Shown here one piece after another: positions 3,746-4,157 of a DNA stretch of 64,000 nucleotides; the first letter of the stretch is position 1; each line of letters opens with the position of its first letter. Position numbers and translations under genes: made by a program. Under the pieces are notes generated by a model. That model was given only the letters and a program-made list of their open reading frames with translations, searched no databases and was not told where the DNA came from. Source of the stretch: Candidatus Obscuribacterales bacterium (GTDB lineage: Bacteria > Cyanobacteriota > Vampirovibrionia > Obscuribacterales > Obscuribacteraceae); NCBI GenBank assembly GCA_019744775.1, contig JAIETZ010000001.1, positions 558,001-622,000 of the forward strand, read 5' to 3'.

Positions 3746-3812
3746 TCTCAGACTCTAATTGGGATCCATGCAAAATGATATCCTGTAAGAGAGCATTTTG
3801 AGGAGTCTAAAT

Positions 3813-4157
3813 ATGCCAAGTTTAGATTGGATGTACCACCGCCGTGGTTGAATGACCTGCACGCGGGCGCAAGAGTTTCTTGCGCGAAACAAGGTGGAAG
3901 CAAAAGAGATAGTGGATGCCGGCAAGAAACTGGGCGAGCAAGAAGCCCTGAAGCTGGCCAAACAAGCAGATCATATATACGCTTCAAAAGGGACAAAAAC
4001 CGTTCATTTTGATATGAAAGCTGACAAGCCAAGCAACGCTGACCTTCTGGCAGTAATGCTTGGACCGACAGGCAACTTGCGCGCGCCAACAATTCGCAAA
4101 GGTCGCACCCTCTTGATAGGCTTCAACCAGGACAACTACAAGAAGGTTCTTACATAG
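3813..4157 (+). CDS. Probable selenoprotein, ArsC/Spx-family thioredoxin-fold protein (UGA at 3849-3851 read as Sec)
   Basis: Reading from ATG 3813 through one in-frame TGA gives 114 residues beginning MPSLDWMYHRRG-U-MTCTRAQEFL. The N-terminal strand, the U13-x-x-C16 redox motif and the TRAQEFL helix match the ArsC/Spx fold, where this site is normally CxxC. A strong Shine-Dalgarno (GAGGAG, 3800-3805) lies 7 bases before ATG 3813, whereas the ATG just after the TGA (3852) has none. A hairpin fitting the bacterial SECIS consensus follows the TGA. The stop is TAG, and other genes here end in TGA, so UGA is not generally reassigned. The likely role is thiol/selenol redox chemistry; the substrate is unknown. 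As I recall, databases hold a family called ArsC family (seleno)protein. The alternative is a 101-residue protein from 3852 that lacks the redox residue and first strand, which would be hard to explain. Confidence 0.8.
3867..3885 (+). promoter_or_regulatory. Candidate bacterial SECIS hairpin
   Basis: GCGCAAG (3867-3873) and CTTGCGC (3879-3885) form a perfect 7-bp stem closing a 5-base loop, AGUUU. A G is the second loop base, and the loop starts 22 bases after the TGA. The bacterial SECIS consensus as I recall it asks for a short apical loop with G in its first two positions, about 16-37 bases from the UGA. All are met. It lies inside the coding frame, as bacterial elements do. Confidence 0.72.

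Follow-up and report, generated by a model that had tools for sequence, protein, structure and literature searches.

A UGA-interrupted gene of the ArsC/Spx-like family in Obscuribacterales, predicted to encode a selenoprotein with a covarying SECIS-like hairpin

The locus and its reading frame

The window, i.e. the whole stretch of 64,000 nucleotides that was analysed from a Candidatus Obscuribacterales genome, contains a short forward-strand gene in which an in-frame TGA is preceded by one ATG and directly followed by another. Its neighbours code for an HI0933-like flavoprotein, a phosphoribosyltransferase, an alpha/beta hydrolase and an S9 peptidase. As most of them lack conservation outside the genus, the gene context gives no functional clue. 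The features of the locus are:

3800..3805, + strand: ribosome-binding site GAGGAG, 7 bases 5′ of ATG 3813 (direct reading)
3813..4157, + strand: predicted selenoprotein gene, 114 residues, MPSLDWMYHRRG-U-MTCTRAQEF...VLT (sequence reading, NF041106 and PF03960 matches)
3849..3851, + strand: UGA codon, predicted Sec13; the relatives examined have TGA or Cys at this column (alignment)
3858..3860, + strand: Cys16, second residue of the UxxC motif, invariant (alignment)
3867..3885, + strand: SECIS-like hairpin, 8-bp stem GCGCAAGA/UCUUGCGC, apical loop GUU at 3875-3877 (fold, covariation)
4155-4157, + strand: stop codon TAG of the same gene

The initial annotation had described an ATG-TGA-ATG frame reading MPSLDWMYHRRG-UGA-MTC, and direct reading of positions 3813-4157 (+) bears this out. 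The full frame starts at ATG 3813, the TGA at 3849-3851 lies in the same frame, and the read-through protein carries the redox motif U13-M-T-C16 (UxxC). The GAGGAG site at 3800-3805 indeed belongs to the ATG 5′ of the TGA, at the proposed distance of 7 bases. The warning that ordinary gene calling would truncate the protein was also justified: the conventional ORF list gives only a 101-residue form from ATG 3852, and under such gene calling the redox centre of the protein would be lost. This standard listing, in which the short form is the sole one, is what speaks for a 101-residue protein without redox centre, preceded by the upstream ATG-TGA as an untranslated leader. We consider such a leader extremely improbable, as the ribosome-binding site belongs to ATG 3813, the codons before the TGA show conservation at the protein level in TGA and Cys forms alike, and the Cys homologues read straight through. 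Moreover, Met14 is not conserved, relatives showing U-T-S-C, U-V-S-C or U-Q-T-C, and a start at this position would cost the fold its first strand in the AlphaFold2 model.

We compared relatives from MAGs of Candidatus Obscuribacterales and other Cyanobacteria, from one Chloroflexi-labelled MAG and from Planctomycetota. All of them have Cys or TGA at the column in question, and none starts at the position of ATG 3852. The 12 codons 5′ of the TGA are conserved, the TGA itself is kept in independent assemblies (L053, L054, L055 and others), and the Cys homologues read on through the column, which argues that the arrangement of frame and TGA is not due to chance. Since the TGA is one base away from the Cys codons of 18 relatives, a sequencing error, a point nonsense mutation of TGC/TGT or the mark of a pseudogene might be considered. 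However, 25 distinct sequences share this TGA, among them members of several genera as well as Planctomycetota, and in every case the frame is otherwise open. The TGA also correlates with the selenocysteine machinery and with the covarying hairpin described below. Conservation across independent assemblies refutes an erroneous or decayed codon, to which we assign practically no probability. The gene of the Chloroflexi-labelled MAG (L054, SBAT01000359.1) is 89% identical and evidently from the same lineage as the host; its label is probably wrong, as neighbouring genes match the window at 87-91%, too. A second contig of the Phycisphaerae MAG.52 (L065, JAKLKO010000014.1) carries the C-terminal half of the gene alone, a partial duplicate.

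Family, fold and probable function

The predicted 114-residue selenoprotein belongs to the ArsC/Spx-like branch of the thioredoxin superfamily. It matches the NCBIfam model NF041106, "ArsC family (seleno)protein", over the entire profile (1-107 of 107) with 140.6 bits against a cut-off of 85, and Pfam ArsC (PF03960) with 25.2 bits, just over the cut-off of 24. The Spx models NF002459 (24.5 versus 123 bits) and TIGR01617 (33.6 versus 75 bits) stayed below their cut-offs, the scores of the Spx/MgsR, Spx and glutaredoxin models being far under them. TIGR00014, the arsenate reductase model, was not among the matches when the read-through protein was searched against the NCBIfam models at E values up to 10. 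The selenoprotein family as such is already catalogued: NF041106 is the "Arsenate reductase 2" (cd03032, UxxC) published in 2008, where Zhang & Gladyshev tabulated it with its UxxC in the Global Ocean Sampling paper (PMC2398784). A 2026 review table lists NF041106 with the UxxC motif, traces it to the 2008 paper and names the family "Arsenate reductase-like protein" (PMC13188914). The common UxxC motif, the mixed Sec/Cys composition and the full-length match link our protein to this family, and we found no difference in kind. In the selenoproteome papers that were searched, we did not come across the host lineage (Obscuribacterales, Cyanobacteriota).

The UxxC had been placed at the site where ArsC/Spx-fold proteins have CxxC. 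This is correct for Spx, but not for the classical arsenate reductase selenoprotein family, which carries UxxS (PMC13188914). Classical glutaredoxin-linked ArsC (TIGR00014) shares the Pfam family PF03960 and the thioredoxin-like fold with our protein and differs in this motif. Among solved structures, Spx (PDB 3l78, 3gfk, 1z3e) is the best match both by sequence profile (E 7e-10) and by fold, although the TM score of these top fold matches is modest (about 0.5). The CxxC of Spx lies at the same place, and L-R-A-P in our protein matches L-R-R-P in Spx. On the other hand, our protein is shorter than Spx, Sec replaces the first Cys, and Gly60 is found about where the ISTR stretch of Spx has Arg. 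The AlphaFold2 model (pLDDT 91, pTM 0.83) has the thioredoxin-like order of elements, with U13 after the first strand and directly before helix 14-25. The invariant residues include Y8, R10, U/C13, C16, G84-P85, G87-N-L-R-A-P92 and G103-F104.

The conserved UxxC/CxxC supports a role as a redox protein. The product is most likely a selenol/thiol oxidoreductase with a thioredoxin fold rather than an arsenate reductase of the classical type or a true Spx regulator, and we hold an oxidoreductase to be clearly more probable than a regulator. In the UxxC selenenylsulfide centre at the start of helix 1, Sec13 should be the nucleophile and Cys16 the resolving residue, and the enzyme would be recycled by glutathione or thioredoxin.

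Selenocysteine machinery and the SECIS-like hairpin

The search for sel genes suggested by the initial annotation was successful, with tRNA-Sec, selA, selB and selD all found in the host genome and the proteins scoring over curated cut-offs. The single tRNA-Sec gene (72 bits) is called tRNA-SeC with anticodon tca by ARAGORN. SelA (502 versus a cut-off of 268 bits) is encoded on the same contig, about 67 kb from the selenoprotein gene, and SelB reached 368.5 (cut-off 242) and SelD 360 bits (cut-off 125). The SelD of the host is a Cys form, and none of the formate dehydrogenase-like genes of this genome is interrupted by an in-frame stop.

According to a published criterion, a bacterial SECIS is a hairpin just 3′ of the UGA with a small apical loop containing G (PMC1088965). 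The hairpin at 3867-3885 begins 15 nt 3′ of the UGA and has a GUU loop, in agreement with this description. Folding of the single sequence was not significant by itself (z −1.1), and covariation was decisive. In 24 distinct Sec genes, a set that excludes three near-identical Planctomycetota genes counted as one sequence (L061, L062, L064), 90.6% of cells are paired, compared to 25-56% when the stem partner was slid. The 21 double-sided changes exceed the 6.8 found in shuffles, none of 500 shuffles being as high, and the third stem pair alone varies between G-C, C-G, U-A, A-U, U-G and G-U. RNAalifold predicted six of the eight stem pairs from these 24 genes. In 17 Cys genes, pairing was 50.0% and thus equal to shuffles. 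The hairpin covaries in Sec forms and is absent from Cys genes.

The loop opens with G in 23 of these 24 Sec genes, a base that no Cys gene out of 18 has there. As this first loop base also fills the third position of a codon, Sec forms mostly read QEF and Cys forms mostly QDF at the loop. The loop G of the RNA seems to dictate the amino acid, Glu versus Asp (3867-3885; aligned sequences L023, L053-L104). An improbable alternative to an enzyme is a redox sensor or switch that resembles Spx but is based on Sec, in a lineage in which the SECIS hairpin would also constrain the protein, with QEF in Sec forms because the loop needs G, and mostly QDF in Cys forms, which are free of the hairpin. As a point against the selenoprotein reading, one Sec gene (L100, from genome G403) lacks the conserved hairpin; it has a shifted one, CUUUC/GAAAG with the loop UAGGUA, just after the TGA, which may replace the conserved SECIS. 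The three Planctomycetota genes also lack the conserved hairpin and may use different ones. An Rfam scan of the locus gave chance matches only. A covariance model of the hairpin matched the host genome clearly at the selenoprotein gene alone (64.8 bits, next match 18.8); the weaker matches were rejected as further selenoproteins because they had no convincing read-through frame.

Apart from the in-frame UGA itself, we found nothing in favour of another amino acid such as Trp at this position, be it by global reassignment or by leaky read-through. The homologues show Cys and never Trp at the column, a tRNA-Sec with UCA anticodon is present in the genome, and a conserved hairpin follows the UGA, so that the chance of another residue being inserted appears minute. 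We rather propose, with a probability of about 0.97, that the gene encodes a selenoprotein whose internal UGA is read as selenocysteine at the redox centre. The sel genes, the Cys/TGA homologues, the covarying hairpin and the NCBIfam (seleno)protein family all support the initial annotation, which had called it probably a selenoprotein. SelB and Sec-tRNA(UCA), brought by the hairpin at 3867-3885, would decode UGA 3849 as Sec instead of terminating, as judged from the conserved sequence and the machinery.

Exchange of Sec and Cys in the order and phylum

The gene is present in 40 of 53 Obscuribacterales genomes. Its decisive column holds TGA in 22 and Cys in 18 of them, with no other residue seen (L080, HRNSCSTC, being counted as Cys), and a Cys follows three residues later in all 40. 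Among the genomes with a completeness of 90% or more, each of the 12 with a TGA form also has tRNA-Sec and SelA (G000, G389, G401, G402, G403, G406, G407, G409, G410, G414, G425 and G432), and all four genomes with the gene that lack both tRNA-Sec and SelA have the Cys form (G399, G405, G412 and G417). The three TGA forms without detected tRNA-Sec are from genomes 65-88% complete (G424, G426 and G436). Fourteen genomes with the Cys form retain tRNA-Sec and SelA, suggesting that other selenoproteins probably exist in Obscuribacterales. One genome of the order, G406, contains a second, more divergent tRNA-Sec (C17:124713-124808, 54.9 bits) beside one of 70.2 bits.

The protein tree requires five or more Sec/Cys changes (bootstrap 4-5). 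As its starred branches alone force no more than one and many of its forks are poorly fixed, number and direction of the changes are provisional. The tree suggests that the gene may have switched between Sec and Cys repeatedly.

Across the phylum, tRNA-Sec was found in 8 of 386 genomes sampled. None of these eight matched the photosynthetic reaction-centre family PF00124, for which a Synechococcus control was positive. Seven tRNA-Sec genomes without PF00124 genes lie outside the host class (G001, G007, G016, G026, G029, G044 and G053). A 2022 review stated that Cyanobacteria lack Sec use (PMC9312934), and a proteome survey of the same year recorded a single Sec protein from a genome of Candidatus Melainabacteria (PMC9529120). 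The blanket statement of PMC9312934 is to be corrected, as the machinery is present in members of the phylum that do not photosynthesize.

In summary, the gene presented here is a well-supported selenoprotein case from a non-photosynthetic relative of cyanobacteria. The taxonomic addition is that Sec decoding is common in Obscuribacterales, the evolutionary one an apparently repeated Sec/Cys exchange. Within the order, this exchange has natural replicates in one small protein and among close relatives, with no such hairpin in the Cys genes, which makes Obscuribacterales a good place to study gain and loss of selenoproteins.
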